From: Aquamicrobium sp.
GTDB lineage: Bacteria; Pseudomonadota; Alphaproteobacteria; Rhizobiales; Rhizobiaceae
Direction of reading: 5' to 3'
Assembly (NCBI GenBank): GCA_019739225.1
Contig: JAHHDT010000006.1
Location: forward strand, 439,823 to 503,822
DNA: 64,000 bases
Shown: positions 701 to 17,768 of the stretch, in pieces
How the letters are laid out: each line of letters begins with the position of its first letter
How positions within the stretch are numbered: position 1 is the stretch's first letter
Translations under genes and position numbers: made by a program
Notes under the pieces: model-generated
Seen by the model: only the letters and a program-made list of their open reading frames with translations
Told to the model about the DNA's origin: nothing
Database searches by the model: none

Positions 701-1705
701 TCAGAGTTCGGACGGCTTTTCGACGACGAGGTCGGCAGCGTCGAACTTCTCGGGGATCGCCTCATATTCGAGGGCGGTGTCGATGGTCGTCTGCCAGGAT
801 TCGAGATTGCCGTAGCCAAAGCCGTTGGCTCTGGTGTCGTCGCTCTGCCACAGCGTCTTGACGAACACCTCGTTGATGATCTCGGTGACGATCTCTTCCT
901 GGCCGGCGAAGGTCGGCGAATATTCCTTGATCGCCATCGCGACCTCAGCGGCGACGTCACCTTCGACGATGTGCTTAAGCGCCTTGTCGAGGGCGGTGAT
1001 GAAGGCCTTCACCTGCTCGGTGTTGGAAGCGAGATAGCTTTCGGAGGTGACGAGCACGTTGCCCTTGGAAGGCAGGTAGTCGTCCGACGCGATCATGCCG
1101 ACATCGACGCCTTCGGCCTGCAGGGCGTAGTAGCGCAGCATGGAGAAGACGATGGCGTCGACCTGGTCGGACTTGAGCGCGTCGAGGATCGCGCCGGTGC
1201 CGACGATCTCGACGTTCACGTCGTCGATCGACTTGCCTGCCTGCGCCATCATCACCTGAAGCTGGATGTAGTTCGGGCTGCCGTAGCTGGTGACGGCGAC
1301 CTTCTTGCCTTCGAGGTCGGCGGGAGACTCGATGCCGCTAGACGTCTTGAAGAGCACGGCGCCGATGCCGCGCTGATAGGTCGAATGAACAACCTTGACC
1401 GGCAGGCCGTTGGCGCGGGCGGAAATCACCGCGTCGCCGTTGGGGAAGCCGAACTGGACGTTGCCGGCCGCGATGTTGTTGAGGATGTCGGCGGCGTTTG
1501 CATAAAGGAACTCGACCTCGAGGCCCGCTTCCTTGAAGTAGCCATAGTGGTCCGCGACGAACATCGGCAGGTAGTATGGCACTGCCGCGCCGTCGATCTG
1601 GATCGTCACCTTCTCCTGGGCCTGCGCGGCGCCGAGGCCGAGCGCAAGCCCGGCGGCGACGAGCGCGCCCCTTGCGAATGCGTTGATTGTCGAAAACAGT
1701 TTCAT
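701..1705 (-). CDS. ABC transporter substrate-binding protein, NMT1/THI5-like
   Basis: Periplasmic binding protein of 334 aa that delivers a small solute to the neighbouring permeases. The start at 1705 gives a clear signal peptide (MKLFSTINAFARGALVAAG, then ALGLGAAQAQ). The mature protein begins with the NMT1-family opening (VTIQIDGAAVPYYLPMFVAD.., then HYGYFKEAGLEVEF). That family binds thiamine pyrimidine precursors, riboflavin-like or sulfonate ligands in different members. The adjacent nucleoside phosphorylase and the TetR regulator hint at a nucleoside, nucleobase or pyrimidine precursor, but this is inference from context. A longer upstream extension of the frame exists but lacks a signal peptide and overlaps the phosphorylase, so it was rejected. 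Confidence 0.92.
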   Translation of the reverse strand: MKLFSTINAFARGALVAAGLALGLGAAQAQEKVTIQIDGAAVPYYLPMFVADHYGYFKEAGLEVEFLYANAADILNNIAAGNVQFGFPNGDAVISARANGLPVKVVHSTYQRGIGAVLFKTSSGIESPADLEGKKVAVTSYGSPNYIQLQVMMAQAGKSIDDVNVEIVGTGAILDALKSDQVDAIVFSMLRYYALQAEGVDVGMIASDDYLPSKGNVLVTSESYLASNTEQVKAFITALDKALKHIVEGDVAAEVAMAIKEYSPTFAGQEEIVTEIINEVFVKTLWQSDDTRANGFGYGNLESWQTTIDTALEYEAIPEKFDAADLVVEKPSEL

Positions 1706-1739
1706 TTCAATTCTCCTCTGGTCCTTTGCATTCAAGCTT

Positions 1740-2519
1740 CTATCGTCCGGCAACCGCGCGGGCGGCTGCCATTGCACCCAGACGCAGCAGGTCGCGCTGC
1801 GTCTTGTCGTAGTCTTCGAGCCAGCCGTCGCTGAGGCGGTGGGCATGGACGGCAAGCACCGCGCCCGCCCGCAGGCCCAGCGCATGGCCGGCAGCAAGCA
1901 CGATCTCGGCTTCCATCTCGATGCCTTCTGCGCCGCGCGCGGCGAGCTGGTCGAGGATCGCGGGCGTGCCGTCGCCATGGGGCCGATCCGGCCGTCCCTG
2001 CGCACGATAGTAGCCGTCAGCGGTCGCGCAGGTTCCGGAACGGCCGGGTAGGCCAAGCTCGCCCCGTGCGGCATCGAGGAGGGCCACGATGCTGGTGTCG
2101 GCCAGCACGCGTTCGCCGGGTTCTGCGTAGAAGGCTGCGACACCGCTGTTGCGCACCGCTTCGGCGGCGATGAGGAAGTCACCAAGTGCGAGATCCTGCG
2201 CGAGCGCGCCCATGCCACCGGTGCGGATCGCGACTTCGACGCCAAGTGCGGCAAGCTCGACCATGACGATCTCGGTGGACGCGCCGCCAATGCCGGTCGA
2301 ACAGATGCCGATCGCAACGCCGTCCAGCGTGCCGACGCCCATGCGGAACTCGCGGTTCTGGCCGACGATGCGGAAATCGTCGAGCACCTCGGCAGCCTTG
2401 TCGACGCGGCCGGGATCGCCAGGCAGCAGGAATGCCTTGGGCATGTTGTCGGGGCGCGGCAGATGCGGGGGCACGTCGCCCTTCCACGGCCAGATTGCGG
2501 AGCGCTCCTTCATCGCCAT
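1740..2519 (-). CDS. nucleoside phosphorylase (NP-I / uridine phosphorylase family)
   Basis: Predicted cytoplasmic phosphorylase of 259 aa that would split a nucleoside with phosphate into base and ribose 1-phosphate. The N-terminal LPGDPGRVDKAAEVLDDF block is the phosphate-binding signature of the uridine/purine phosphorylase family. The nucleoside-site glutamates sit in EGIEMEAEIVLAAGHA. The start at 2519 overlaps the upstream permease stop by 10 bases, so translation is coupled. A phosphorylase inside an ABC operon suggests that the imported solute, or a product of it, carries an N-glycosidic bond. Length is close to the family norm (about 250 aa). It could equally act on a modified or thiamine-like pyrimidine nucleoside. 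Confidence 0.87.
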   Translation of the reverse strand: MAMKERSAIWPWKGDVPPHLPRPDNMPKAFLLPGDPGRVDKAAEVLDDFRIVGQNREFRMGVGTLDGVAIGICSTGIGGASTEIVMVELAALGVEVAIRTGGMGALAQDLALGDFLIAAEAVRNSGVAAFYAEPGERVLADTSIVALLDAARGELGLPGRSGTCATADGYYRAQGRPDRPHGDGTPAILDQLAARGAEGIEMEAEIVLAAGHALGLRAGAVLAVHAHRLSDGWLEDYDKTQRDLLRLGAMAAARAVAGR

Positions 2520-3262
2520 GACAGCAGCCACTTCTCGGTGAGCGCGAGCGCCTGATAGACGGCAATGCCGAGCAGCGAGGTGACGAGCACCATCGCGAAG
2601 AGCAACGGCGTCTTGTAGGTGGTGCCGGCGAAGACCATAAGGTAGCCGAGGCCGGTGCCGCCCGAGAGCCATTCTGCGAGGATCGCGCCGATGGTCGCCT
2701 GCACCGCCGCGACCTTCAGCCCGGCGAAGATTTCCGGCACGGCTGCGGGCAGCTCCACGCGCAGCAGCTTGTCGCGCGGCGAGAGCTTGAGGATGGCGCA
2801 CAGCGCATGAAGGTTCGCCGGGACCGAGCGCAGGCCGAGCATGGTGCCGACCATGACCGGGAAGAACACCAGCGACACGGTCAATACGATCTTGGAGGTG
2901 AGGCCAAGGCCGAACCAAAGGATGAAGAGCGGTGCGAGCGCGATCTTAGGCGCGGTCTGAAAGAAGAAGAGGTAGGGTCCGACGACCCGCTCCACACGCG
3001 GCCATTTGCCAAGCGCGAAACCGAGCGCGAAGCCGGCCGCCGAGCCGATGGCGAAGCCGGCGACGATGATGCCGACCGTGTGCGCGAGATGCGGCCAGAT
3101 GGTGCCGCTGGCAAACAACCGCACCAGCTCCCCGAACACCGCATCCGGCGGTGGCAGCACGAAGCGCGGCACGTTGAACAGCTCGACGTAACCCCACCAC
3201 GCGGCGATCAGCAGCAGCGGGGTCGCGACCGTGAAGATGCGTCGCAGCGCCGTGTCGTTCAC
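2510..3262 (-). CDS. ABC transporter permease, NMT1/SsuC type
   Basis: Inner-membrane permease of 250 aa with about six hydrophobic segments and the EAA coupling loop (ELPAAVPEIFAGLKVAAV). The chosen start is GTG at 3262. It overlaps the ATPase stop codon as GTGA and has AAAGGAAC as ribosome site, giving MNDTALRRIFTVATPLLLIA. It pairs with the second permease at 1-649, and the operon's ATPase at 3259-4059 would energise both. Two distinct permeases in one NMT1-type system are less common than a homodimer. Confidence 0.9.
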   Translation of the reverse strand: MNDTALRRIFTVATPLLLIAAWWGYVELFNVPRFVLPPPDAVFGELVRLFASGTIWPHLAHTVGIIVAGFAIGSAAGFALGFALGKWPRVERVVGPYLFFFQTAPKIALAPLFILWFGLGLTSKIVLTVSLVFFPVMVGTMLGLRSVPANLHALCAILKLSPRDKLLRVELPAAVPEIFAGLKVAAVQATIGAILAEWLSGGTGLGYLMVFAGTTYKTPLLFAMVLVTSLLGIAVYQALALTEKWLLSWR

Positions 3263-4059
3263 CGCAGTTCCTTTCGCAGCGTCGAAAGCCACTGGTAGAA
3301 GCGCGGATCGTCCTTGATCGCCTCCGAGCGCTGCGGCCCGAGATCGAGGTGGTGAATGGCGCTGATGCGGCCGGGCCGCGCCGACATCACGGCCACGCGG
3401 TCGGAGAGATAGGCCGCTTCCTCGATCGAATGCGTGACGAAGACGATGGTCGAGCCGGTCTCGGCCTTGATGCGCAGCAGTTCGTCGTTCATGCGGTCGC
3501 GCGTCAGCAGGTCGAGTGCGCCGAAGGGCTCGTCCATCAGCACGATGCGCGGGCTGTAGACGAGCGCGCGGGCGATCGCGGCACGCTGCCGCATGCCGCC
3601 CGAAAGCTCCTTCGGCAGCGACTTTTCGAAAGCGCCGAGGCCCACCAGCGCGAGCATGGCGCGGGCGCGCTCATTGGCCTCTGCGCGCGGCGTGCGGAAG
3701 ACGTCGAGGGGGAAGCGCACATTGTCGAGGATCGACAGCCAGGGCAGCAGCACCGGCTCCTGGAAAACGAATCCGACATCGGAGCCGGCGGTCGGGGGTC
3801 CGTCGCGCCAGGTCAACGTGCCGCCGGTCAGCGGCTCAAGGCCGGAGAGGATGCGAAGGAGCGTCGACTTGCCGCAACCCGAGGGGCCGATGAGGCTGAG
3901 AAATTCGCCTTCGCGGATGTCGAGCGTCGTTGGTGCCAGCGCTTCGACGCTGTCGCCATGGCGCGAACGGTAGATCTTCGTCACAGCCTGCGCGCTGACG
4001 AGAACCGGAAGGCTGCTGGTCTTTTCCGCGGGTTTCAATTTTTCGACTTTATGCCCCAT
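3259..4059 (-). CDS. ABC transporter ATP-binding protein, SsuB/TauB type
   Basis: ATPase subunit of 266 aa for the NMT1-type importer. Walker A is GPSGCGKST at about residues 58-66, the signature is LSGGMRQR at 152-159, Walker B is IVLMDEP at 172-178, and the switch histidine is in FVTHSIEEA. The start at 4059 (MGHKVEKL) is the last ATG before the conserved fold; a longer frame upstream to 4290 runs through the divergent promoter region and was rejected. It is the first gene of the operon and is divergent from the TetR gene at 4345, so the 285 bases between them hold both promoters. Confidence 0.92.
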   Translation of the reverse strand: MGHKVEKLKPAEKTSSLPVLVSAQAVTKIYRSRHGDSVEALAPTTLDIREGEFLSLIGPSGCGKSTLLRILSGLEPLTGGTLTWRDGPPTAGSDVGFVFQEPVLLPWLSILDNVRFPLDVFRTPRAEANERARAMLALVGLGAFEKSLPKELSGGMRQRAAIARALVYSPRIVLMDEPFGALDLLTRDRMNDELLRIKAETGSTIVFVTHSIEEAAYLSDRVAVMSARPGRISAIHHLDLGPQRSEAIKDDPRFYQWLSTLRKELR

Positions 4060-4283
4060 TGTCTCAATTATGCGACGATGCTTGCAAAATTGAACTGCCG
4101 CGTCAAATGCGTTTGCGCAGGTCCATTCACATTTTTGTCGCGATGCAGAGCCGCATAAGCCGCGGAAATTCTGGCTTTTGCACGCCTCGCGCGAAGCGCG
4201 GTGCGACGGTGAGGCGGATTCTGCAAATCGAATCAAGCGAATCGTTGGCGGCCGCTCGCAATCACAGCGCGCATGCGACCCCG

Positions 4284-4311
4284 TTGACATTCGATAGCTT
4301 GGTCATATGAT
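4284..4311 (+). promoter_or_regulatory. sigma70-type promoter of the tetR-TRAP operon
   Basis: TTGACA at 4284-4289 and TATGAT at 4306-4311 are separated by 16 bases, a near-consensus housekeeping promoter reading toward the TetR gene at 4345. The -10 element lies inside the palindrome at 4300-4326, so repressor binding would block it. The rest of the 4060-4344 intergenic region must also hold the promoter of the minus-strand ABC operon, but no equally good match was seen there. Confidence 0.6.
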
Positions 4312-4326
4312 TTAATCAATTGACCA
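4300..4326. promoter_or_regulatory. palindromic operator, probable TetR binding site
   Basis: TGGTCA and TGACCA flank a partly symmetric AT-rich centre (TGATTTAATCA); 11 of 13 positions per half-site match the other half. The palindrome covers the -10 box of the promoter reading into the TetR-family gene. Its position in the divergent region between the ABC operon and tetR suggests auto-repression and possibly control of both directions. The repressor assignment is inference from proximity. Confidence 0.6.
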
Positions 4327-4344
4327 GTCTCTCTGGGAGGAGAA

Positions 4345-5052
4345 ATGCTGCAGCCCGCTGCCAATGCGGAGCGCCGCGATGCCGCGGACGCAATCCTCGA
4401 CGCCGCGGAAGCGGTGTTTGCGGATCACGGCTTCGCCGCGGCCACCACGCGGGCCATCGCGGATCTCGCCAAGGTCAACCTGGCGCTGATCCACTATTAT
4501 TTCCGGACCAAGGAGCAGCTTTTCGAGGCGGTCTTCGTGCGTCGCTCGGACGAGATTAATGATCGTCGACGGGTAATTCTCGCGGAACTCTTCTCCCGAG
4601 ATTCAGCGCCGGCACTGGAGCAGATTCTGGTTGCGCTGCTGCGCCCGACCATCGAGGTCGGCCGCATGTCGAACGGCGGCGGCTTCCACTATGCGCGCAT
4701 GGTGGTCAACGTGGCCAGCGGGCATGATGAACGCTCCACCCGCCTGACCGGCATGCAGTACAACGGTATCGCGCGCGAGTTCATCGATGCGATCCAGAAG
4801 GTCATGCCGGGCATCTCGCGCGAGATGGCGGTGTGGTCCTACATGCACGCCATCAACATCGCGATGCCGCTGATGGCGCGCAACCACCGCGCCGCAGTGC
4901 TTTCCGACGGACTTTGCCGCGACGACGATCTCGATGCGGTGATCGACAACGCCGTCACATTCATCGCCGCCGGCATTCGCGCGCTGGCGATATCGCATGC
5001 CGTGGACGAGGCCGGCAGGCTCCGTTCCGGAAACAACAGCATGCCCGCCTGA
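4345..5052 (+). CDS. TetR/AcrR family transcriptional regulator
   Basis: DNA-binding repressor of 235 aa. The helix-turn-helix lies at about residues 33-56 (TTRAIADLAKVNLALIHYYF), followed by the typical FRTKEQLFEAVF. The C-terminal two thirds is an all-helical ligand and dimer domain. GGGAGGAG lies just before the ATG. It starts a plus-strand run of genes (24 bases to the TRAP binding protein) and is divergent from the ABC operon. It probably senses the solute, or a metabolite of it, handled by one of the two operons. The ligand cannot be told from the sequence. Confidence 0.9.
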   Translation: MLQPAANAERRDAADAILDAAEAVFADHGFAAATTRAIADLAKVNLALIHYYFRTKEQLFEAVFVRRSDEINDRRRVILAELFSRDSAPALEQILVALLRPTIEVGRMSNGGGFHYARMVVNVASGHDERSTRLTGMQYNGIAREFIDAIQKVMPGISREMAVWSYMHAINIAMPLMARNHRAAVLSDGLCRDDDLDAVIDNAVTFIAAGIRALAISHAVDEAGRLRSGNNSMPA

Positions 5053-5076
5053 AGGGCCTGCAAACCAGGAGGAAAC

Positions 5077-6144
5077 ATGAACACTCATCTGCGTCGCGCC
5101 TTTTTGGCCGCAACTTTCCTTGCTTCGACCGGCGTCTCCGCCCAAGCCCAGCAGGAGATCAGCGTTACGCTGGTCAACGGTCATCCGCCGGTCTTCCTGT
5201 GGGTCAAGCACCTGACCGAGACCTACATCCCCACCGTCAACAAGGCGCTGGAAGGCTCCGGCTACACGATCGCGTGGAGCGAGGCCTATGGCGGTACGCT
5301 GGCGGCCGTCGGCGGCGAGCTTGAAGCGCTTGAGGACGGGCTTGCCGAAGTCGGCGTGGTGCCGACGGTCTTCGAGCCAACCGCTTTGCCCCTTCAGAAC
5401 GTCTCCTATTTCACACCGTTCAGCACGCCGGACCCGCGCCTGGTGCTGGAAACGGTCAATGTGCTGCATGAGAGCGTGCCGGGCATGGTCGACAGCTGGG
5501 AGCGCTACGACGTCGAATATCTCGGCGGCGGATTCGCGCTCGACAACTACCTGCTGATGACCAACTTCCCGGTCGAGTCGATCGACGACCTCAGCGGTCG
5601 CCGCATCGCCGCGCCCGGGCCGGCGGTCAACTGGCTGGAAGGCACCGGCGCCGTGGGCGTGGCGGGCAACCTCACCACCTACTACAACGACATCCAGACC
5701 GGCGTGTTCGACGGCGTGATCGTGTTCCCGACGGCGGCGGCTCCGGCCAAGCTGCAGGAGGTGGCGCCGCACATCACCATCACCGACTTCGGTGCGCAGT
5801 ATGCCGGCTCGGTCGTGGCCAACAAGCCATGGTTCGACGAGCAGCCGGAGGCCGTGCAGGCGGCGCTGCGCGAAGGCGCGAAAGCCTACACCGAAGCCTA
5901 TCTGCAGGAACAGAACAGCCGCGTCGAGGCGGCCCTTGCCGGCATGCAGGAAAACGGCGGCACGCTGACCACGCTCTCCGACGAGGAGAAGGCCCGCTGG
6001 GCAGCGGCGCTGCCGCAGATCGCCGACACCTGGGCCAAGGCAGCCGAGGCTGACAACCTGCCGGCGTCGGAAGTGCTGGACGCCTATATAGGCGCGCTCA
6101 AGGAAGCCGGCGCACCGCTGCCGCGCGACTGGTCGCAACGCTAG
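5077..6144 (+). CDS. TRAP transporter substrate-binding protein, DctP family
   Basis: Periplasmic solute receptor of 355 aa for a sodium-coupled TRAP transporter. A signal peptide spans about residues 1-25 (hydrophobic run ending SAQAQQ). The DctP fold includes the canonical region around DDLSGRRIAAPGPAVNWLEG, where a conserved Arg usually binds a carboxylate. The ribosome site AGGAGGAAA is strong. DctQ and DctM genes follow after two hairpins. With the enzymes downstream, the ligand is expected to be an organic acid, but its identity is open. Confidence 0.92.
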   Translation: MNTHLRRAFLAATFLASTGVSAQAQQEISVTLVNGHPPVFLWVKHLTETYIPTVNKALEGSGYTIAWSEAYGGTLAAVGGELEALEDGLAEVGVVPTVFEPTALPLQNVSYFTPFSTPDPRLVLETVNVLHESVPGMVDSWERYDVEYLGGGFALDNYLLMTNFPVESIDDLSGRRIAAPGPAVNWLEGTGAVGVAGNLTTYYNDIQTGVFDGVIVFPTAAAPAKLQEVAPHITITDFGAQYAGSVVANKPWFDEQPEAVQAALREGAKAYTEAYLQEQNSRVEAALAGMQENGGTLTTLSDEEKARWAAALPQIADTWAKAAEADNLPASEVLDAYIGALKEAGAPLPRDWSQR

Positions 6145-6158
6145 GTCGCACTGAGAGA

Positions 6159-6215
6159 AGCCTTCTCGACGAAGGCTACTCCTTGTCTGTTGCCTGCCGG
6201 GACTGTCCCGGCAGG
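6159..6215 (+). terminator. two tandem hairpins between dctP-like and dctQ-like genes
   Basis: AGCCTTC/GAAGGCT (6159-6177) is followed by a perfect 10-bp stem CCTGCCGGGA/TCCCGGCAGG with a CTG loop (6193-6215). There is no T-run. Placed right after the binding-protein gene, they probably protect that part of the mRNA or attenuate read-through to the membrane subunits. Confidence 0.6.
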
Positions 6216-6255
6216 TCTCCGCTGATCATTTCAAACCCGTTCGACAGGTGAAGAC

Positions 6256-6831
6256 ATGCTTCCCGCAACGCTCGGCGAACTGCGAACCGGCTACCGTCCG
6301 GTCGACCTGGCAGCGAGGCTGCTCGACCGGCTGACGGTGGCGGTGAGCGTCGTCGGTACGCTGGGCATCCTCGCCATCATGGTGCTGATCGCCTGCGACG
6401 TCATCGGCCGCGGCATGTTCGGCAGACCGATCATGGGTGTGCCGGAGATCATCTCGATGTCCATCCTGGGCATCGTCTTCCTGCAGCTCGCCAACACGCT
6501 GGCGCGCGGAAAGCTGACGCGGGCCGATGCGCTCATCAACCAGCTTGCGCGCCGCGCGCCGCGTGTCGGCCTGTTCGTCGACGCTGTGATGCACGCGGCC
6601 GGCGCATTGCTGACCGGCGTGCTTGTCACCGCCTTCTACCCGCTGTTCCTGCGCAGCTATGGCCGCAACGAGACCGTCGGCACCGTCGGGCAGTTCATCG
6701 CGCCGATCTGGCCGGTCCATTTCATCGTGCTGGCCGGCGCAACCGTGCTGTGCGCGGTGTTCGTAATGCGTGCGGTGGCACTCTTCATCCTGGCGTTTCA
6801 GTCTGCGGCCCACGAAAGGAGCGAGCCATGA
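6256..6831 (+). CDS. TRAP transporter small membrane subunit, DctQ family
   Basis: Small permease subunit of 191 aa with four predicted membrane helices, for example TLGILAIMVLIACDVIGRGM and ISMSILGIVFLQLANTLA. The conserved DVIGRGMFGRPIMGVPEI stretch follows the first helix, as in DctQ proteins. It pairs with the DctM subunit; the stop overlaps the DctM start as ATGA, so the two are translationally coupled. It is a member of the TetR-TRAP-cyclase-BKACE-SMP30 operon. Confidence 0.9.
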   Translation: MLPATLGELRTGYRPVDLAARLLDRLTVAVSVVGTLGILAIMVLIACDVIGRGMFGRPIMGVPEIISMSILGIVFLQLANTLARGKLTRADALINQLARRAPRVGLFVDAVMHAAGALLTGVLVTAFYPLFLRSYGRNETVGTVGQFIAPIWPVHFIVLAGATVLCAVFVMRAVALFILAFQSAAHERSEP

Positions 6832-8147
6832 GCGGCGTCGAGATCGGTCTCGCCTCGCTCGCGGCGATCCTCGTCCTGATCTATTCGGGTCTGCACGTTG
6901 CGATCTCGCTCGCGCTCGTCAGCTTCGTGGGTATCTGGCTGCTGCGCGACAATGCCGACCAGGCGGCACGCATCCTGTCGCTGGCGGCACGCGAGAGCAT
7001 TTCGAGCTATCTGTTCGGCGTCGTGCCGCTGTTCGTGCTGATGGGGCTGGTGGTGAGCCGCGCCGGCATCGGTCGCGATACGTTCGATGTCGCCAACCGC
7101 CTGTTCCACAAGGTGCGCGGCGGTCTCGGCATGGCGACAGTCGGCGCCAACGCCATCTTCGCCGCCATCACCGGAATTTCCATCGCGTCGGCCGCCGTCT
7201 TCACCAAAGTCGCCGTGCCCGAGATGATACGGATCGGCTACACCGCGCGCTTCGCCACAGGCATCGTTGCCGGCAGCTCTGTGCTGGGCATGCTGATCCC
7301 GCCGAGCCTGCTGCTGATCCTCTACGGTATAATCGCCGAACAGTCCGTCGGCTCACTCTTTCTGGCCGGCATCGGGCCGGGCGTCCTGCTGGCGCTCGCC
7401 TACTGCGTCGGCATCTGGGCGATGGTGCGCTTCTGGAAAGGCTTCACCGGGACGCCGAACGAACTGACGGCCGAGATGCCCGAAGAGCAGTCGTCGGTTG
7501 CCTCGGATACCGTTTCCAAGCTGATGCCGATCCTCCTGCTCGTGGCGCTGGTTCTCGGCGGCATCTATGGCGGTCTGTTCACCCCCACCGAGGCCGGCGC
7601 CATCGGCGCGCTGGGGGCGATCCTGATCGCGGCTGCCAAGCGGCGCATCGGTGCGCGCACCTTGTGGGACGTCTCGCTCGAGACCGGCCACATCACCGCG
7701 TCGATCTGCTTCCTGATCATCGCGGCCACCATGTACAGCCGCATGCTGGCGCTGTCCGGCCTGCCCGCCTTCCTGACGGAATGGGTGATCGCGCTGGATA
7801 TCGGCGTTTACGGTTTCATCGCGCTGTTCGTGCTGGTGCTGATCGTACTCGGCACGATCCTCGATTCCTCCTCGATCATGCTGATCACGCTGCCCCTGGT
7901 CCTGCCGGTCGCCACTTCGATGGGGATCGACCTGATCTGGTTCGGCCTGATCACTGTGCTGGCGGTCGAGATCGGATTGCTGACGCCGCCGATGGGGCTC
8001 TCCGTCTACGTCATCAAGAGCACGCTCGACGATCCGTCGATCGGGCTCAACGACATCTTCGCCGGCGCGGCTCCGTTCGCGCTTATCATGCTGCTCGTCT
8101 TGCTTGCCGTGGTCGCCTTCCCCTGGATCGCGACGGGCATTCTCTAA
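6828..8147 (+). CDS. TRAP transporter large membrane subunit, DctM family
   Basis: Translocation subunit of 439 aa with 11-12 hydrophobic segments and the usual glycine-rich hairpin motifs (IPPSLLLILYGIIAEQS, GLFTPTEAGAIGALGAIL, TPPMGLSVYVI). The start at 6828 overlaps the DctQ stop and has AAAGGAG upstream; an in-frame extension to 6750 would overlap DctQ heavily and was rejected. It uses the sodium gradient to move the solute delivered by the DctP protein at 5077-6144. Confidence 0.92.
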   Translation: MSGVEIGLASLAAILVLIYSGLHVAISLALVSFVGIWLLRDNADQAARILSLAARESISSYLFGVVPLFVLMGLVVSRAGIGRDTFDVANRLFHKVRGGLGMATVGANAIFAAITGISIASAAVFTKVAVPEMIRIGYTARFATGIVAGSSVLGMLIPPSLLLILYGIIAEQSVGSLFLAGIGPGVLLALAYCVGIWAMVRFWKGFTGTPNELTAEMPEEQSSVASDTVSKLMPILLLVALVLGGIYGGLFTPTEAGAIGALGAILIAAAKRRIGARTLWDVSLETGHITASICFLIIAATMYSRMLALSGLPAFLTEWVIALDIGVYGFIALFVLVLIVLGTILDSSSIMLITLPLVLPVATSMGIDLIWFGLITVLAVEIGLLTPPMGLSVYVIKSTLDDPSIGLNDIFAGAAPFALIMLLVLLAVVAFPWIATGIL

Positions 8148-8165
8148 CCCCGCAAGGACTGAAAA

Positions 8166-8942
8166 ATGGCACGCCGCATCATCGACCTGTCCGTTCCGCT
8201 GGAGGCGGGCATCGCCTCCGACCCGCCGGGTCACGAACCGAAGATCACCTATCTTCCGCACAAGGATACGGCGGGACAGATCACCGGCTTCTTTCCCGGC
8301 CTGAAGGAGGAAGACCTGCCCGGCAGGGAGGGATGGGCGATCGAGCTGCTTCAGATCACGACGCATAATGGCACTCATCTCGACGCACCCTATCACCACC
8401 ACTCGACCATGGACGGCGGCAAGCGTGCGATCACCATCGACGAGGTGCCGCTCGACTGGTGCTTCCAGCCGGGCGTGAAGCTGGACTTCCGCCATTTCGC
8501 CGACGGCCAGATCGTGACCGCGGACGACGTGAAACGCGAGCTCGACAGGATCGAGCACACGCTGAAGCCACTGGAAATCGTCGTGGTCAACACCGCCGCC
8601 GGCACCGCTTATGGTCAGCCCGACTACACGCATCGCGGCTGCGGCATGGGCCGCGAGGCGACGCTGCATCTGCTCGAGCAGGGCGTTCGGGTGACCGGCA
8701 CCGACGGGTGGAGCTGGGATGCGCCGTTCTCGCATACCCGCAACCGCTTCGCCGAAAGCAAGGACCCCTCGATCATCTGGGAAGGCCATCGCGCCAGCAT
8801 GGAGATCGGCTACTGCCATATCGAGAAGTTGACCAACCTGGAGCAGCTTCCGGCAACCGGTTTCCAGATTTCCTGCTTCCCCTTCAAGATCCGCGCCGCT
8901 TCGGCCGGCTTCGTTCGCGCCGTCGCCATCATCGAGGACTGA
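8166..8942 (+). CDS. cyclase-family metal-dependent hydrolase (kynurenine formamidase-like)
   Basis: Putative hydrolase of 258 aa of the cyclase family, which includes kynurenine formamidase, isatin hydrolase and cyclic-imide or amide hydrolases. The metal-binding signature HNGTHLDAPYHH lies at residues 67-78, where two His and one Asp would hold the metal. It lies 18 bases after the DctM stop and 36 bases before the BKACE gene, so it is co-transcribed with the transporter. It probably opens an amide, lactone or cyclic bond in the imported compound. No tryptophan-pathway gene is nearby, which argues against true kynurenine formamidase. Confidence 0.87.
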   Translation: MARRIIDLSVPLEAGIASDPPGHEPKITYLPHKDTAGQITGFFPGLKEEDLPGREGWAIELLQITTHNGTHLDAPYHHHSTMDGGKRAITIDEVPLDWCFQPGVKLDFRHFADGQIVTADDVKRELDRIEHTLKPLEIVVVNTAAGTAYGQPDYTHRGCGMGREATLHLLEQGVRVTGTDGWSWDAPFSHTRNRFAESKDPSIIWEGHRASMEIGYCHIEKLTNLEQLPATGFQISCFPFKIRAASAGFVRAVAIIED

Positions 8943-8978
8943 CGGCCCTTCTTCCGACCTTCACGAGGACATAGACCC

Positions 8979-9917
8979 ATGAGCAAGAACACCGGGAAAG
9001 TCATCATAAGCTGCGCCGTCACCGGCGGCATCCACACGCCGTCCATGTCGGACGCGCTGCCCTATACGCCGGACGACATCGCCCGGCAGTCGATCGAGGC
9101 GGCCGAAGCCGGCGCAGCGATCCTGCATCTCCACGCGCGCGACCCGCAGACCGGCCGGCCGACGCCGGACCCGGCCGTGTTCATGCAGTTCCTGCCGCGC
9201 ATCAAGCAGGCGACCGGCGCGGTGGTGAACATCACCACGGGCGGCGGGCTCGGCATGTCGCTGGAAGAGCGGCTGGCCGCGCCCATGCAGGCCGCACCGG
9301 AGATGTGCTCGCTCAACATGGGATCGATGAATTTCGGTATCTTCCCAATGGCAGCCAAGGAGCGCGACTGGAAGTTCGACTGGGAAAAGCCCTACATTCT
9401 CGGCACGGACGACTTCATCTTCCGCAACACGTTCCGCGACATCGAATACATCCTCAAGAATCTCGGCGAGAAGCACGGCACGCGCTTCGAGCATGAGTGC
9501 TACGATGTCGGCCACCTCTACAACCTTGCCCATTTCGTAGATCGTGGTCTCGTCAAGCCGCCGTTCTTCGTGCAGATGATCTTCGGCATCCTCGGCGGTA
9601 TCGGTGCGGCGCCGGAAAACCTGATGTTCATGAAGGAAACGGCCGACAAGCTGTTCGGCGACGACTACCAGTGGTCGGTTCTGGCGGCGGGCCGCCACCA
9701 GATGCCGATTGCCACGCAAGCCGCTCTGATGGGCGGCAACGTGCGGGTCGGGCTCGAGGATTCGCTTTACATCGGTCGCGGCAAGCTTGCCGAATCGAAC
9801 GCCGAGCAGGTGCGCAAGATCAGGCTCATCATCGAGGAACTCGGCCTGGACATCGCAACGCCTGAAGAGGCTCGCGCCACGCTGGCCCTCAAGGGCGGCG
9901 ACCGGGTTTCGTTCTAG
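8979..9917 (+). CDS. beta-keto acid cleavage enzyme (BKACE, DUF849)
   Basis: Zinc enzyme of 312 aa of the BKACE family, which cleaves a beta-keto acid with acetyl-CoA to give acetoacetate and a new acyl-CoA. Metal ligands are visible as H50 and H52 (AAILHLHARDP) and E260 (NVRVGLED). Family members differ mainly in the side-chain pocket of the beta-keto acid, so the substrate here is unassigned. Its place between the cyclase and the SMP-30 gene and behind a TRAP importer suggests it makes the carbon-carbon cleavage step in degrading the imported compound. Confidence 0.92.
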   Translation: MSKNTGKVIISCAVTGGIHTPSMSDALPYTPDDIARQSIEAAEAGAAILHLHARDPQTGRPTPDPAVFMQFLPRIKQATGAVVNITTGGGLGMSLEERLAAPMQAAPEMCSLNMGSMNFGIFPMAAKERDWKFDWEKPYILGTDDFIFRNTFRDIEYILKNLGEKHGTRFEHECYDVGHLYNLAHFVDRGLVKPPFFVQMIFGILGGIGAAPENLMFMKETADKLFGDDYQWSVLAAGRHQMPIATQAALMGGNVRVGLEDSLYIGRGKLAESNAEQVRKIRLIIEELGLDIATPEEARATLALKGGDRVSF

Positions 9918-9972
9918 CACCAGCACAATAGCAATGGAGCCGCCCCGCAGTGGGGCGGCGGGGAGGAGCGTG

Positions 9973-10983
9973 ATGGCGGGCAATCCGATAGACGGCTTCG
10001 AGGTCGATCCTGCAACGGTCGGCTTCATTGGCGAAGGGCTGCAGCGGCCCGAATGCATTCTGGCTGAGCGCGACGGGAGCCTTTGGAGCGCCGATGCGCG
10101 CGGCGGGGTGGTGCATATCCGGCCGGACGGCTCGCAGCACCTTGTCACCCAGCAGATCGACGAGCGTTTTTCGGCCAATGCCGACGAGGCCGAACGCTTC
10201 ACCACCGGCACGCTGCCGAATGGTCTCGCCTTCGACCGCGACGGCTCCTTCCTGGTCTCCAACTTCGGCACCGACAGGCTGGAGCGGATGACCCGCGAGG
10301 GCCAGACCTCGGTGCTGGCGGATACGCTCGACGGCAAGCCCATCGGCAAGGTCAATTTCGTCCTGCGCGACAGCAAGGGCCGGGTATGGCTGACGATCTC
10401 GACCCGCATCGTCAACTGGATGCAGGCGATCAGCCCCAACCTCGCCGACGGCTATGTCGCCGTGTTCGACGAGCAGGGCCTGCGCGTCGTCGCCGACGGC
10501 TTCCGCTTCACCAACGAGATCCGTTTCGATGCGGCGGAGGAATGGCTGTACGTCGTGGAGACGACCGGCCGGCGCATCACGCGGCTGCGCATCGACGACC
10601 GCTGCGAAGTGACTGCGCGCGAAACCTTCGGGCCGGACGACACCGGCGGGTTCATCGATGGCATCGCCTTCGACAGCCACGGCAATCTGTGGGGCACCCA
10701 CGTGATGTCCGACCGCATCTTCGCGATCACGCCGGAAGGCGATTTCCGAGTGATACTCGACGACGACAACCCCGCACCGTCGAAGGTGCTCTACGATGCC
10801 TTCGCACGCGATGCCGTCACACCGGACCTGATGTTGGCCTGCGGCGGCAAGCTGGCACCCTGGTTCGCTTCCGTGACGTTCGGCGGGCCGGATCTCAGAA
10901 CGGTCTATATCGGCTCGCTGCGTGGAACCCGCATACCGTTCTTCCGGTCACCCGTTGCCGGCCTGCCGATGTCGCACTGGTAG
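9973..10983 (+). CDS. SMP-30/gluconolactonase family protein
   Basis: Six-bladed beta-propeller protein of 336 aa of the SMP-30/gluconolactonase/LRE family, generally calcium- or zinc-dependent lactonases. Repeated propeller strands are visible (GLQRPECILAERDGSLWSAD, NGLAFDRDGSFLVSNFG, DGIAFDSHGNLWGTHV) with the usual metal-site Glu, Asn and Asp. The start at 9973 has GGGAGGAG upstream and is preferred over an ATG at 9934. It is the last gene of the operon; its stop lies 4 bases from the stop of the convergent doeB. It may hydrolyse a lactone in the same pathway as the BKACE. Confidence 0.87.
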   Translation: MAGNPIDGFEVDPATVGFIGEGLQRPECILAERDGSLWSADARGGVVHIRPDGSQHLVTQQIDERFSANADEAERFTTGTLPNGLAFDRDGSFLVSNFGTDRLERMTREGQTSVLADTLDGKPIGKVNFVLRDSKGRVWLTISTRIVNWMQAISPNLADGYVAVFDEQGLRVVADGFRFTNEIRFDAAEEWLYVVETTGRRITRLRIDDRCEVTARETFGPDDTGGFIDGIAFDSHGNLWGTHVMSDRIFAITPEGDFRVILDDDNPAPSKVLYDAFARDAVTPDLMLACGGKLAPWFASVTFGGPDLRTVYIGSLRGTRIPFFRSPVAGLPMSHW

Positions 10984-10987
10984 GCGA

Positions 10988-11995
10988 TCAGCCTGTCGGC
11001 ACCGCAACGACGGCGGCGCAGTCGCCGGCTTTCACGAGGCCGGGAAAGTGGCGCGCGGCGAGCAGCCCGTCCATCTTCGCGCGGATTTCCTGCGGCGCCG
11101 TACCAGTGCGGCCGACGCCGTGGATGCGTGCGACGACCATGCCCTGCTCGACCCTGTCGCCCAGATCGATCATCGTCTCGATCATGCCGTCATCCTCGGC
11201 GAAGGAGAAACAGTCGTCCGACGGCATGTCGAGCCAGGCGGTCGGGGACTGCTCGACCGCGCCGGAGACGATGCCGGCATGGCGCAGCACGTTCATGACG
11301 CCCCGCCGCGCGATCCTGACGGTGCGCGCGCGGGAGGTTCCGCCACCGCCGAGCTCGGTGGTGACGAAGGTCTTGCCCATGTCCTCGGCCGCGGTGTCGA
11401 ACATGCCGACAGCGTCGATCTCCAGCATCTTCACCGACCATGGTGCCGCGAAGGCCTCCACGGCTGCAAAGGCGCGCGCCTCCTGCACCTTGTCGGGCAG
11501 GACGTGCGCGGCGCAGAACGGCACGAAGTCGAGCGTGCGGCCGCCCGAATGGAAGTCGAGAACGATGTCGGCGCGCGGCAGCAAATGGCGCTGCACGTAG
11601 TCCGCGATCTTCTCGGTCACGGTACCGTCGGGCCTGCCCGGGAAGCTACGGTTCATGTTGCCCTTGTCGATGGGCGAGGTGCGGGTGCCCGCCTTGAACG
11701 CCGGGTAGTTGAGCGCGGGCAGGATGATGACCGTGCCCGACACGTCCTGCGGGTCGAGCGTGCGGGCCAGGTCGTAGAGGGCGAGCGGGCCTTCATACTC
11801 GTCGCCGTGGTTGCCGCCCGTCAGCAATGCCGTGGGCCCGCGGCCGTTGCAGATGACCGCAATGGGCACCATGACGGAACCCCATGCGGAGTCGTCGCGG
11901 CTGAACGGCAGCCGCAGGAAACCGTGCTGTGCGCCGGATCCGTCGAGGTCGATCGTCGGCACGATGGGAGAGGGACGAAGGTTCTGGTCGAGCAT
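10988..11995 (-). CDS. doeB: N-alpha-acetyl-L-2,4-diaminobutyrate deacetylase DoeB
   Basis: Zinc deacylase of 335 aa of the succinylglutamate desuccinylase/aspartoacylase family. In ectoine breakdown it removes acetate from N-alpha-acetyl-diaminobutyrate to give L-2,4-diaminobutyrate. Metal ligands are H63 and E66 (GGNHGDEYEG) and H149 (DFHSGG). The assignment rests on this family signature plus its position directly after doeA (5-base gap) in a complete ectoine cluster; this gene is called eutE in Ruegeria. The start at 11995 is the ATG after the doeA stop. It is the terminal gene of the minus arm. Confidence 0.9.
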   Translation of the reverse strand: MLDQNLRPSPIVPTIDLDGSGAQHGFLRLPFSRDDSAWGSVMVPIAVICNGRGPTALLTGGNHGDEYEGPLALYDLARTLDPQDVSGTVIILPALNYPAFKAGTRTSPIDKGNMNRSFPGRPDGTVTEKIADYVQRHLLPRADIVLDFHSGGRTLDFVPFCAAHVLPDKVQEARAFAAVEAFAAPWSVKMLEIDAVGMFDTAAEDMGKTFVTTELGGGGTSRARTVRIARRGVMNVLRHAGIVSGAVEQSPTAWLDMPSDDCFSFAEDDGMIETMIDLGDRVEQGMVVARIHGVGRTGTAPQEIRAKMDGLLAARHFPGLVKAGDCAAVVAVPTG

Positions 11996-12000
11996 GGCGC

Positions 12001-13182
12001 TCAGTCCTTGACGAAAAGCTGTCTCGGCACGTTGGCCAGACATTCCACACCGGTTTCGGTAATCAGGATGGATTCGGTGATCTCGAGGCCCATGTCCTCG
12101 AGCCAGAGGCCGGTCATGAAATGGAACGTCATGCCGGGTTCGAGCACGGTCCGGTCTCCCGGGCGCAGGCTCATCGTGCGCTCGCCCCAGTCCGGCGGAT
12201 AGCTGATCCCGATCGGATAGCCCGTGCGGTTATCCTTGACGATGCCGTATTTCTTGAGAACCGCGAAGAAGGCGTTTGCGATGTCCTCGCATGTGTTGCC
12301 GGGCCGCGCTGCCTCAAGGCCGGCTTCCATACCTTCCAGCGTCGCCTTCTCCGCATCAAGGAAGGCTTCGGTCGGCTTGCCGAGGAACACGGTGCGCGAC
12401 AGCGGGCAGTGATAGCGGTGATAGCAGCCGGCGATCTCGAAGAAGGTGCCTTCATTGGCCTTCATCGGCCGGTCGTCCCAGGTCAGGTGCGGTGCCGAAG
12501 CGTCCGCGCCCGACGGCAGCAGGGGCACGATGGCGGGATAATCACCGCCGAAATCGTCGACACCACGAATGCCGGCATCGTAGATTTCGGCAACGAGATC
12601 GCATTTGCGCATGCCGACTTCCGCCTTGTCGAGAATGCGGGCATGCATCGCCTCGACGATACGGGCTGCCTTGCGCATATAGTCGATCTCGGTCGGGCTC
12701 TTGACCGCGCGCTGCCAGTTGACGAGCGCTGTGACATCCACGAAGCGTGCGTTGGGCAGCCCTTTCTGCAGCGCTGCGAAGGCTGCGGCCGAGAACCAGT
12801 AATTGTCCATCTCGACTCCGACGGAGAGCCCGTCGAGACGACGGTCGCGCAGCACTTGTGCGAGGAAATCCATCGGGTGGCGCTCGGTGGACTGCACGTA
12901 GTGGTCGGCGTAGCCGATGATGTTCTCGTGGCCGAGATAGGCCGTGCGCTTGGCGCCATTCGCGTCCTGCCCACGGCCGTACCAGATCGGCTCGCCCTGC
13001 GGCGGCACGATGACGGCCTGGTGTACGTAGAACGACCAGCCGTCATAGCCGGTCAGCCAGGCCATGTTCGACGGGTCGCTGACGATGAGCACGTCGATGC
13101 CACGCCGTTCCATCGCGCGGCGCGTCTTGGCCAGACGCTGGGCATATTCCTCACGCGTGAACTTGAGATTGGGCGAACTCAT
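12001..13182 (-). CDS. doeA: ectoine hydrolase DoeA (M24 peptidase family)
   Basis: Ring-opening enzyme of 393 aa that hydrolyses ectoine to N-acetyl-diaminobutyrate; called eutD in Ruegeria. It has the creatinase-type N-terminal domain (residues about 1-165) and a pita-bread M24 domain. Several canonical M24 metal positions are replaced, as is usual for ectoine hydrolases, which need no metal. GAGGAA precedes the ATG at 13182 (MSSPNLKFTREEYAQRL). Length is close to the 399 aa of characterised enzymes. It sits between eutC and doeB on the same strand. Confidence 0.92.
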   Translation of the reverse strand: MSSPNLKFTREEYAQRLAKTRRAMERRGIDVLIVSDPSNMAWLTGYDGWSFYVHQAVIVPPQGEPIWYGRGQDANGAKRTAYLGHENIIGYADHYVQSTERHPMDFLAQVLRDRRLDGLSVGVEMDNYWFSAAAFAALQKGLPNARFVDVTALVNWQRAVKSPTEIDYMRKAARIVEAMHARILDKAEVGMRKCDLVAEIYDAGIRGVDDFGGDYPAIVPLLPSGADASAPHLTWDDRPMKANEGTFFEIAGCYHRYHCPLSRTVFLGKPTEAFLDAEKATLEGMEAGLEAARPGNTCEDIANAFFAVLKKYGIVKDNRTGYPIGISYPPDWGERTMSLRPGDRTVLEPGMTFHFMTGLWLEDMGLEITESILITETGVECLANVPRQLFVKD

Positions 13183-13204
13183 GAAGTGGGGATTCCTCGC
13201 TTGG

Positions 13205-14197
13205 TCAGCTTTCGAAAATCGTTCCTGCCCGGGCCGCCGCCGCGCGCTGTCGGGCCAGTGTGGCGATGGCGGTGTCCTGCGCACCGGTGCCTGTCAGGTC
13301 GCAAAGGGTGATCGCCGCCGGCGACCGGCGCCCGCGCATCTTTCCTGCCACGATTGCCCCCAGTTCGGAGAAGGCGGCATCGGAGGCAACCGCGCCCGCC
13401 TCTATGGCGTGGTGCAGTTCGCCCAACCGTCTCGTCTGTTTCAGGCTGTCCGCGACATAGGGTTCGGCGCGCGCCACCACGGCCGGGTCGATCTCGTTCT
13501 TGTGCTCCGCATCCGAACCCATGGCCGTGACATGCTGGCCGGGAGACAGCCAGTCGGCCTTGATGAGCGGCTGCTCGGAGGGCGTGGTCGTTACCAGCAC
13601 GTCTGCACCCGATGCCGCCTTCTTCGGGTCGGATTCCGCGCGAACCAGGATACCCAGTTCCTCGCGCAGCTTTGCGGCCAGCGCCTCGGCCTTGGCCGCG
13701 TCTCGCGCCCAGATGCGCGCCTCGGCGATCGGTCGCACCAGCATCAGCGCCTTGAGCTGCAGGCGCGCCTGCACGCCTGCACCGAAGATCGCCGCGACGG
13801 TGGAATCCGGCCGCGACAGATGCTTTGCTGCGACCGCACCCGCAGCGGCTGTGCGAATGTCGGTCAGGTAGCCGTTGTCGAGCAGCAGCGCTTCGGTCAG
13901 CCCGGTTTTTGCCGAGAGCAGGACCATCATGCCGTTGACGCTCGGAAGACCGAGTTTCGGATTGTCGAAGAAGCCGGGGCTGAACTTGATGGCGAAGCCG
14001 TCCACGCCGGGAACATAGGCGGTCTTCACATCGACCTCGCCGCGATGCTCGGGAATGTCGAGCCGCAGGATCGGCGGCATCGCGACCTGCAGGGTGGCCA
14101 GCGCGCGAAAGGCGTTCTCCACGCAGTCGACCGCTTCGAGGTCGAGCGGGACGAGGTTCCGCAATTCGGCTTCGGTGAGGATGGTCATGCGGGTCAT
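13205..14197 (-). CDS. eutC: EutC, ornithine cyclodeaminase/mu-crystallin family enzyme of ectoine utilisation
   Basis: NAD(P)-binding protein of 330 aa of the ornithine cyclodeaminase family. The Rossmann segment includes VAAIFGAGVQARLQLKAL, and an N-terminal substrate loop contains KFSPGFFDNPKLGLPSVNG. In hydroxyectoine-degrading alphaproteobacteria, eutABC are thought to convert 5-hydroxyectoine or its hydrolysis products into the ectoine route. The start ATG at 14197 overlaps the eutB stop (ATGA). Identity comes from synteny with eutA, eutB, doeA and doeB more than from catalytic residues. Confidence 0.87.
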   Translation of the reverse strand: MTRMTILTEAELRNLVPLDLEAVDCVENAFRALATLQVAMPPILRLDIPEHRGEVDVKTAYVPGVDGFAIKFSPGFFDNPKLGLPSVNGMMVLLSAKTGLTEALLLDNGYLTDIRTAAAGAVAAKHLSRPDSTVAAIFGAGVQARLQLKALMLVRPIAEARIWARDAAKAEALAAKLREELGILVRAESDPKKAASGADVLVTTTPSEQPLIKADWLSPGQHVTAMGSDAEHKNEIDPAVVARAEPYVADSLKQTRRLGELHHAIEAGAVASDAAFSELGAIVAGKMRGRRSPAAITLCDLTGTGAQDTAIATLARQRAAAARAGTIFES

Positions 14198-15192
14198 GTT
14201 GCGTGCTCCCCGGCAAAGGGGTTGTCGCCGCAGACGATGCGGCGGTGAAGTTCCATGTCGATATTGCGGCCGGAAAGGATGAGAACCGTCGGGCCGGCCG
14301 GCTTCACCCTTGCCGACAAAAGCGCGGCTATGCCGACGGCACCCGCACCTTCGACGATCTCGCGCTCCGCCTCATAGGCATGCGCGATGCCGGCGGCGAT
14401 CTCTTCTTCCGACAGCAGCACCACATCGTCGAGGAGTTCGCGGCACATGGCGAAGGTCAGCCGGTTGTCGAGGCCGATGCCGCCGCCAAGCGAGTCGGCC
14501 AGCGAGGCGACTTCCTCGACCTGGACCGGCGCGCCGGCGTCGAGGCTCGCTTTCATGGCCGCGCCCCGCGTCATCGAAACGCCGATCACCCGTGTCGATG
14601 GCGACCTGCCCTTGACGGCGGCCGCGATGCCTGCCGCAAGCCCGCCGCCCGAAAGCGGCACCAGCACCGTCTCGACCTCTGGAAGCGCGTCGACGATTTC
14701 GAGGCCGAGCGTTCCCTGACCCGCGATGACGCCGGGATGATCGAAGGGCGGCACCATCGTCATGCCTTCATCGGCAACGAGGCGCTCCACCTCGACCTGG
14801 GCATCGTCCTGGCTGTTGCCGACGATGCGGATCTCCGCACCCAGCCTGCGGATCTCGGAGACCTTGTTGTCGGGCACGAGGCGCGACATGCAGATCGTGG
14901 CGCGGATGCCTTCGGCCTTCGCTGCATGGGCGAGCGCGCGGCCGTGGTTGCCGGTGGAGGCTGCGACGACACCGTGCGTGCGCTCCTCGTCGTTGAGAAG
15001 GGTTATCGCATTGGTCGCGCCGCGCAGCTTGAAGCTGCCGGTCGTCTGCCGGTGCTCCAGCTTCAGATGGACAGGAACGCCAAGGGTCTCCGACAGTGTC
15101 GATGACGTCACGAGCGCGGTTTGCTCGATCCTGCCGGCGATGCGTTCGCGGGCGGCGAGAATATCGGAGAGGCTGATTGCGGCCGGGGTCAT
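14194..15192 (-). CDS. eutB: EutB, threonine dehydratase-like PLP enzyme of hydroxyectoine utilisation
   Basis: Fold-type II PLP enzyme of 332 aa. The Schiff-base lysine is K55 in TTGSFKLRGATNA, and the phosphate-binding loop is PLSGGGLAAG. It belongs to the threonine/serine dehydratase group and in ectoine clusters is proposed to dehydrate the hydroxylated intermediate. The start at 15192 lies 8 bases after the eutA stop; a frame extension to 15285 overlaps eutA and was rejected. Flanked by eutA and eutC in the canonical order. Confidence 0.87.
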   Translation of the reverse strand: MTPAAISLSDILAARERIAGRIEQTALVTSSTLSETLGVPVHLKLEHRQTTGSFKLRGATNAITLLNDEERTHGVVAASTGNHGRALAHAAKAEGIRATICMSRLVPDNKVSEIRRLGAEIRIVGNSQDDAQVEVERLVADEGMTMVPPFDHPGVIAGQGTLGLEIVDALPEVETVLVPLSGGGLAAGIAAAVKGRSPSTRVIGVSMTRGAAMKASLDAGAPVQVEEVASLADSLGGGIGLDNRLTFAMCRELLDDVVLLSEEEIAAGIAHAYEAEREIVEGAGAVGIAALLSARVKPAGPTVLILSGRNIDMELHRRIVCGDNPFAGEHAT

Positions 15193-15200
15193 GGCGCGGC

Positions 15201-16001: not shown

Positions 16002-16008
16002 TAGTGGC

Positions 16009-16449: not shown

Positions 16450-16474
16450 GACCGTTTCCTCTTCCTTTCGCGTG

Positions 16475-17758: not shown

Positions 17759-17768
17759 GTCGGGATCC

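Follow-up and report, generated by a model that had tools for sequence, protein, structure and literature searches.

A cluster of seven genes was analysed in a 64,000-nucleotide stretch of an Aquamicrobium sp. genome (GCA_019739225.1, contig JAHHDT010000006.1, positions 439,823 to 503,822), which is called the window below. The genes lie on the plus strand at 4345-10983 and encode, in this order, a TetR regulator, the DctP, DctQ and DctM components of a tripartite ATP-independent periplasmic (TRAP) importer, a metal-dependent cyclase, a beta-keto acid cleavage enzyme (BKACE) and an SMP-30-type propeller (list of open reading frames and Pfam). We propose that they form an operon, controlled by TetR, for the breakdown of a small acid or enol with a cyclic 1,3-dicarbonyl structure, such as a 4-hydroxy-2-pyrone (e.g. 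triacetic acid lactone) or a cyclohexane-polyone, a reading to which we give about an even chance of being correct. All seven proteins scored above the Pfam cut-offs, and the catalytic residues of the BKACE and the cyclase as well as the metal-ligand positions of the SMP-30 protein are intact. The first-pass annotation had placed the importer, cyclase, BKACE and SMP-30 genes on one strand, and this was confirmed by the Pfam scores, the intact residues and the recurrence of the genes in relatives. Its limits, 5077-10983, were right for the genes included but not for the start, as the TetR gene at 4345-5052 also belongs to the unit. The intergenic gaps from TetR to SMP-30 are, in order, 24, 111, -4, 18, 36 and 52 nt, and such short distances suit one transcription unit.

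The first-pass annotation had let its proposal depend on the conservation of the gene order, and this order was found again in relatives. At least 591 relatives of the cyclase were confirmed (one genome per species), the best 80 were kept and 79 named loci were scanned, one of the 80 (L067) being too short. TRAP genes stand beside the cyclase in 28 of the 79 loci (counting L114, a manual addition in which another gene intervenes), a frequency which, like the others given here, describes a sample of the 80 best relatives and hand-picked plasmid and genome loci and is not a population estimate. Among these 28 loci a BKACE gene is present in 14, a gene of the fumarylacetoacetate hydrolase (FAH) family in 5, an SMP-30 gene in 16, BKACE together with SMP-30 in 11 and none of them in 4. 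Uninterrupted cyclase-BKACE-SMP-30 behind TRAP genes was observed in six of the 79 loci (L035, L038, L040, L041, L061, L101); other TRAP-cyclase operons have an OsmC-family gene inserted or a different order. The Chelatococcus plasmid pCO-6 carries exactly the seven genes. Since the set recurs in other genera, including a betaproteobacterium (L101, Pigmentiphaga kullae), its assembly is not a matter of chance. The closest locus, L035 of Mesorhizobium sediminum, is nearly identical to that of the window (cyclase 98%, BKACE 99% identity). The cyclase was detected in 29 of 398 genomes of the sampled phylum (E <= 1e-20), a BKACE of the window's kind in 44 of 398 (E <= 1e-75), and the cyclase in none of the further 16 genomes listed for the family to which the window belongs; thus the gene set is patchy and probably mobile. 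An OsmC-related gene is a frequent extra in TRAP-cyclase operons (L037, L039, L042, L047, L048, L053, L055-L057, L061, L063, L064, L076, L083), and that of L042 matched NF041052 with 124.8 bits.

The evidence that bears on the product of the cyclase comes from the exchange of its partner enzyme. From 179 cyclase places 148 distinct sequences were obtained, and 116 of these are on loci longer than 7 kb. Within 3.5 kb of the cyclase the 116 loci have a BKACE in 26 cases, an FAH-family enzyme in 22, a fumarylacetoacetase in 4 and none of these in 64, the BKACE share being inflated because some plasmid records were chosen for showing both cyclase and BKACE. Both a BKACE and an FAH-family enzyme were found in 0 of the 116 loci against 5.8 expected if they were independent (P 0.0005; P 0.010 for the 57 rows left by thinning at 80% identity, among which some relatedness remains). 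On a cyclase tree of the 116 rows, made by a quick method and with 25 of 113 inner branches starred, the BKACE and FAH labels change at least eight times; the starred branches alone force at least six changes for the BKACE label and at least three for the FAH label, each counted against all other rows. For the combinations of BKACE with SMP-30 and of TRAP with SMP-30 the tree offered too few independent pairs to be informative. In a comparison of 20 chosen loci two exchanges could be followed closely. In the first one L048, L052 and L076 have BKACE and L056 and L083 have FAH, with DctP 71-78%, cyclase 70-79% and OsmC, where present, 68-78% identical; in the second one L055 and L061 have BKACE and L047 and L053 have FAH, with DctP 68-72% and cyclase 79-82% identical. 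Since receptor and cyclase stay nearly the same while the C-C cleaving enzyme at this place changes, the exchange suggests that BKACE and FAH both act on the product of the cyclase, and it points to a 1,3-dicarbonyl compound.

The exchange extends to operons with another importer. An ABC importer of the NMT1 type replaces the TRAP genes in L143, L145, L146 and L148, the order being TetR-ABC-cyclase-FAH-SMP-30 in L145 and L146 and TetR-ABC-cyclase-SMP-30 in L143 and L148. In L125, L128, L225 and L226 the order is TetR-ABC-cyclase-FahA, with SMP-30 preceding TetR in L125; the ABC binding protein of L125 shares 52% identity with that of L145. The L125 FahA is a fumarylacetoacetase (524 bits with TIGR01266, cut-off 375), the L128 partner is annotated fahA, and the L225 and L226 partners are 66-86% identical to that of L125. 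In L125, L225 and L226 the cyclase has an acetoacetyl-CoA synthetase gene at a distance of 4.2-5.3 kb, which in the last two is directly behind TetR and divergent from it; in L128 no such gene was found within 9 kb. The known substrate of fumarylacetoacetase is an acyl-acetoacetate, and the enzyme also acts on other 3,5- and 2,4-dioxo acids. As BKACE and fumarylacetoacetase both yield acetoacetate, the simplest acid that would suit both is an acyl-acetoacetate, i.e. a 3,5-dioxo acid. Nothing on FAH enzymes acting on diketo acids was found in the open-licence literature.

The two versions also have a likely regulatory site in common. TetR relatives (30-62% identical) hold the same place in the related operons, and the 18-bp palindrome TGACTGATCGATCAGTCA, allowing up to two mismatches, has 11 sites in 2.90 Mb of the loci analysed (overlapping stretches counted), a number that is descriptive only since the palindrome was noticed in and counted on overlapping loci. 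All 11 sites sit just 5' of the TetR gene of a cyclase operon: in loci with TRAP and BKACE (L048, L052, L076, L101, L115), with TRAP and FAH (L056, L083) and with the ABC importer (L143, L145, L146, L148). The next-best matches, with three mismatches, are inside the TRAP-cyclase operon of L058 and 9 kb from the cyclase in L049. The palindrome is likely a TetR operator common to the BKACE, FAH and SMP-30 versions.

What each enzyme does, and to which class the substrate of the operon belongs, we infer from the protein families and the gene neighbourhoods. The TRAP system would import the substrate anion, the cyclase would open the ring with water, without any redox step, to a 3,5-dioxo (acyl-acetoacetate) acid, and the BKACE would move the acetyl end of this acid onto acetyl-CoA, so that acetoacetate and an acyl-CoA result. 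The acetoacetate would be activated by an acetoacetyl-CoA synthetase or a SCOT-type transferase encoded outside the operon; genes matching such a synthetase (1019 bits) and a subunit of a SCOT-type transferase are present in the own genome, both above cut-off. Uptake, ring opening and acetyl-CoA-dependent cleavage had already been suggested in the first-pass annotation, and these steps agree with the protein families. No oxidoreductase domain was detected by Pfam among the seven proteins of 4345-10983, therefore the beta-keto acid should arise from the ring opening itself, provided that no redox enzyme encoded outside the unit takes part. Triacetic acid lactone, like other 4-hydroxy-2-pyrones, would give a beta-keto acid on ring opening and is an anion at neutral pH, and a 3,5-dioxo acid forms a lactone on standing. 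To name triacetic acid lactone or another hydroxypyrone as the substrate is a guess. The SMP-30 protein would most likely open a lactone, either the substrate itself or one formed spontaneously by the dioxo acid, its place in the route being likewise guessed.

The nearest known system is the phloroglucinol cluster of Clostridium scatologenes, which consists of phloroglucinol reductase (PGR), dihydrophloroglucinol cyclohydrolase (DPGC), the dehydrogenase TfD and triacetate acetoacetate-lyase (TAL), in the order PGR-DPGC-TfD-TAL (PMC10470551). DPGC, a member of the cyclase family, acts on a carbocyclic 1,3-dione, whose ring it opens in a retro-Claisen cleavage; DPGC and TAL, which is a BKACE, make the two C-C cleavages, and the reductase and the dehydrogenase make the redox steps (PMC10470551). 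Thus the earlier statement that no described pathway has this set overlooks cyclase plus BKACE, which are the core of that pathway (PMC10470551). For the whole set no paper was found here either, and a search of the open-licence literature for the enzyme combination brought up none besides PMC10470551 that seemed to deal with it. The likeness lies in the chemistry, namely ring opening by a cyclase-family enzyme and cutting of 3,5-dioxohexanoate with acetyl-CoA by a BKACE, which are their reactions and are predicted here. Unlike the C. scatologenes cluster, the unit of the window has neither of the two dehydrogenases and adds a TRAP importer and an SMP-30 propeller.

The unit could itself be a phloroglucinol or dihydrophloroglucinol cluster of the C. 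scatologenes kind, with the cyclase as DPGC, the BKACE as TAL and the dehydrogenases elsewhere. The same two enzyme families stand in the same kind of cluster, and similar clusters are reported in Mesorhizobium loti, Bradyrhizobium sp. and marine alphaproteobacteria (PMC10470551). We nevertheless consider this unlikely. Neither phloroglucinol reductase nor TfD dehydrogenase is among the seven genes of 4345-10983, and Pfam gave no match to short-chain dehydrogenases/reductases (SDR) in their products, the rest of the genome not having been searched; since the two redox genes are absent from the unit, it was regarded as similar to the phloroglucinol pathway in chemistry and was not counted as a member. 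Furthermore, the BKACE is missing in L060 and L064, the two checked loci with an SDR-type gene between cyclase and SMP-30. At the specificity position the BKACE of the window presumably has Ile18, tentatively taken by sequence reading as the equivalent of TAL Trp16 and of Glu14, which in Kce serves the 5-amino group. In C. scatologenes TAL the position of Kce Glu14 is held by Trp16 (PMC10470551). Finally, in the N-terminal segment of the cyclase D19 is kept by 146 and P20 by 147 of the 148 homologues, whereas DPGC, known here by description only, is said to carry Trp20 and Tyr22 (PMC10470551).

The BKACE gene (8979-9917, plus strand) codes for a protein of PF05853 (364.4 bits, gathering score 24.8). 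Its score with the NCBIfam model NF053538, '3,5-dioxohexanoate:acetyl-CoA acetone transferase', was 546.2 bits (cut-off 430), by which it is a predicted enzyme of the 3,5-dioxohexanoate type; with 237.1 bits it did not reach the cut-off of 382 of NF052387, the model for Kce of lysine fermentation. The protein retains His50, His52, Glu173, Arg256 and Glu260, among which we take His50, His52 and Glu260 to be the zinc ligands by analogy. It belongs to the same 310-residue group as BKACE15 of Paracoccus denitrificans (PDB 8RIO/8RIP/9HNF; 58.6% identity) and has the same Glu base and Arg, since its Glu173 and Arg256 align with Glu171 and Arg254 of BKACE15. Glu171 is the base of BKACE15, whose physiological role is stated as unknown (PMC11961710). 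The BKACE encoded beside a cyclase on P. denitrificans plasmid 1 was also compared with BKACE15 and proved to be a different protein.

The relatives of the BKACE bring in a quaternary-amine (carnitine-like) route, in which the enzyme would cleave dehydrocarnitine or a relative of it. BKACEs that are 75-80% identical to that of the window are encoded near dehydrogenases of the 3-hydroxyacyl-CoA/carnitine type, directly adjacent in Azospirillum (L137) and at most 6 kb away in Aminobacter (L135) and Sinorhizobium (L134). In the unit, however, Pfam detected neither a dehydrogenase nor a demethylase nor a betaine gene, and the own genome has another BKACE beside such a dehydrogenase (L138), this BKACE being 37% identical to that of the window and its dehydrogenase 33% identical to the Azospirillum one. 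We regard this route as the least probable of the alternatives. A BKACE neighbourhood with a distant cyclase and a 3-hydroxyacyl-CoA-type dehydrogenase recurs in L134, L135 and L214, with a cupin and an SDR gene added in L135. Two seemingly alike, divergent BKACE-family proteins are also encoded in the own genome (L003 and L004, at G000:C2:80077 and G000:C5:84142), 19-20% identical to the BKACE of the window.

The cyclase (8166-8942, plus strand), a predicted metal-dependent ring-opening hydrolase, matched PF04199 with 118 bits against a gathering score of 23.1. Its His67, His71, Asp73 and His77 are identical in all 148 aligned homologues; this H-x3-H-x-D-x3-H pattern we take to be the metal motif common to isatin hydrolase and kynurenine formamidase. 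The AlphaFold model has a mean pLDDT of 86, with residues 69-73 of the metal loop below 50, and its nearest solved fold is the Mn-dependent isatin hydrolase (19-22% identity), with kynurenine formamidases further down. These folds would suit the hydrolysis of a cyclic amide, isatin- or formylkynurenine-like, with the cyclase as an amidase, which we consider quite unlikely. The identity to isatin hydrolases (PDB 4J0N, 4M8D, 5NNA, 5NMP) and kynurenine formamidases is just 18-22%, so that different substrates are expected, and the arylformamidase model TIGR03035 gave 25.5 bits, far from its cut-off of 223.05. In addition, cleavage of an amide leaves the BKACE/FAH exchange unexplained unless the product is a beta-keto acid. 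Of the two kinds of opening named in the first-pass annotation, ring or amide, the latter is possible, but the exchange points to a 1,3-dicarbonyl.

The SMP-30/gluconolactonase-like propeller (9970-10983, plus strand; start codon GTG at 9970 or ATG at 9973) is a predicted lactonase with 78.5 bits for SGL PF08450 (gathering score 26.3). Its E28, N129, N182 and D230 are invariant in 16 of 16 homologues and are, we assume, the equivalents of the known metal ligands of SMP-30. The model (pLDDT 90) has the lactonase RPA3624 as the nearest solved fold. The order of cleavage followed by lactone hydrolysis, as the first-pass annotation had it, was not borne out: 5 of the 16 TRAP-cyclase operons with an SMP-30 gene have no BKACE, which indicates that SMP-30 goes with the cyclase and not with the product of the BKACE. 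SMP-30 also accompanies FAH instead of BKACE in L145 and L146, and this tells against a route for a lactonised sugar acid resembling deoxyribonate, in which SMP-30 would open the lactone and the BKACE would cut a beta-keto acid. Such a route could be supposed because the SMP-30 model matches lactonases best, and because lactonase, dehydrogenase, BKACE and transporter genes are united in the deoxyribonate operon of Pseudomonas simiae (PMC6365646). That operon differs in its MFS importers and SDR dehydrogenase, and no cyclase is mentioned in the accessible part of PMC6365646. In the unit of the window Pfam found no SDR domain, hence the needed dehydrogenase is lacking, and the cyclase is left without a role. 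We think this route very unlikely.

Several observations weigh against the proposed 1,3-dicarbonyl operon itself. No BKACE or FAH is encoded within 3.5 kb of the cyclase in more than half of the loci longer than 7 kb (64 of 116), and 4 of the 28 TRAP-cyclase operons lack BKACE, FAH and SMP-30 nearby; hence the cyclase works in other settings too. Two ring openers, cyclase and SMP-30, would be redundant for one ring. The FAH partners of 300 amino acids score higher with the 2,4-diketo acid and HpaG-type models than with fumarylacetoacetase, all below cut-off, and this would suit a 2,4-dioxo acid. The close BKACE relatives with dehydrogenase neighbours described above count here as well, and the BKACEs of the operons do not form one clade: on a tree of 36 rows (L003, L004, L036 and L114 were excluded as too distant) there are six label changes, and they are mixed with dehydrogenase-linked BKACEs. 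Thus the sequence of the BKACE alone does not fix its substrate, and the BKACE phylogeny was not used as a guide. The palindrome of the window is unlike the shared 18-mer, and by sequence reading the DNA-binding helix of its TetR differs from that of the group with the 18-mer; therefore the only tie between the window and this group is by way of L101 and L115, whose homologues are 77% and 82% (BKACE) and 71% (SMP-30) identical to those of the window.

A wider idea, which we put forward as doubtful, is a redox-free route for 4-hydroxy-2-pyrones and cyclohexane-triones (triacetic acid lactone, even phloroglucinol in its keto form), where BKACE or FAH finishes interchangeably under one TetR operator. 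One hydrolysis would give the 3,5-dioxo acid, and two unrelated enzymes, the acetyl-CoA-dependent BKACE or the water-dependent FAH, would complete the breakdown. We know of no bacterial pathway described for the uptake and use of such polyketide by-products, and searches of the open-licence literature on triacetic acid lactone brought up none. The BKACE and cyclase families have many members without an assigned substrate. The BKACE/FAH exchange and the shared operator narrow the cyclase product to an acid that both enzymes cut, so the assignment is reduced to a short list of testable compounds. Through the proposed route these operons would take part in the turnover, in soil and sea, of rings derived from polyketides or polyphenols.

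The cyclase loci without a partner include notably a large group of the Pseudolabrys type near ABC and tripartite-tricarboxylate-like genes (names by sequence reading). An Enterococcus faecium plasmid of fermented-soybean origin encodes a 52% identical cyclase (L123, 9001-9765), within 3.5 kb of which there is neither a BKACE nor an FAH gene. In L120, L127, L130, L131 and L228 the cyclase stands beside a prolyl-oligopeptidase/alpha-beta hydrolase, an FAD oxidoreductase and mostly VOC-family genes, also with FAH, and these clusters resemble flavonoid-degradation clusters; L127, L130 and L131 look like the fde/ifc kind when set against the description in PMC11069340.

The remaining genes of the unit are all on the plus strand as well. 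The regulator (4345-5052) is of the TetR/AcrR type with TetR_N and TetR_C_30 domains (Pfam). DctP (5077-6144; 81.7 bits) is the TRAP solute-binding protein with a signal-peptide-like start, DctQ (6256-6831; 39.6 bits) the small permease and DctM (6828-8147; 280.9 bits) the large permease, with a 4-nt overlap between the last two, and so by Pfam the three components of a TRAP transporter are present together. DctP has Arg175/176 within the usual ligand-binding segment, which we presume to bind the ligand; a search of solved structures for its ligand was uninformative (top match just 43 bits). Upstream of TetR, a sigma70-like promoter, TTGACA-16-TATGAT, was located at 4284-4311 on the plus strand (11 of 12 positions matched), and an imperfect palindrome, a candidate TetR operator, at 4293-4333 (core 4300-4326) contains its -10 box. 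Since the region 4000-11100 holds two promoter-like sites where chance predicts 1.0, the promoter scan proves nothing alone, and in a single-palindrome test the palindrome before TetR was within the 95% null.

On the other side of the promoter region, at 701-4290 and divergent from TetR (minus strand), genes for an NMT1/THI5-like binding protein, a phosphorylase-like protein, an ABC permease and an ATPase were recognised by reading the open reading frames. With 26% identity between this binding protein and its counterpart in an ABC-type cyclase operon, the two were judged unrelated. The 3' end of the operon is 4 nt from the stop codon of the convergent ectoine gene doeB. An ectoine degradation locus occupies 10988-18347 (minus strand), with doeB, doeA and eutC assigned by NCBIfam, and eutB, eutA, a universal stress protein and a second TRAP transporter by reading. 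As ectoine-type genes are near the cyclase in just two of the 79 named loci (L035, and L056 with a doeA-like gene), this neighbourhood was not used as functional evidence.

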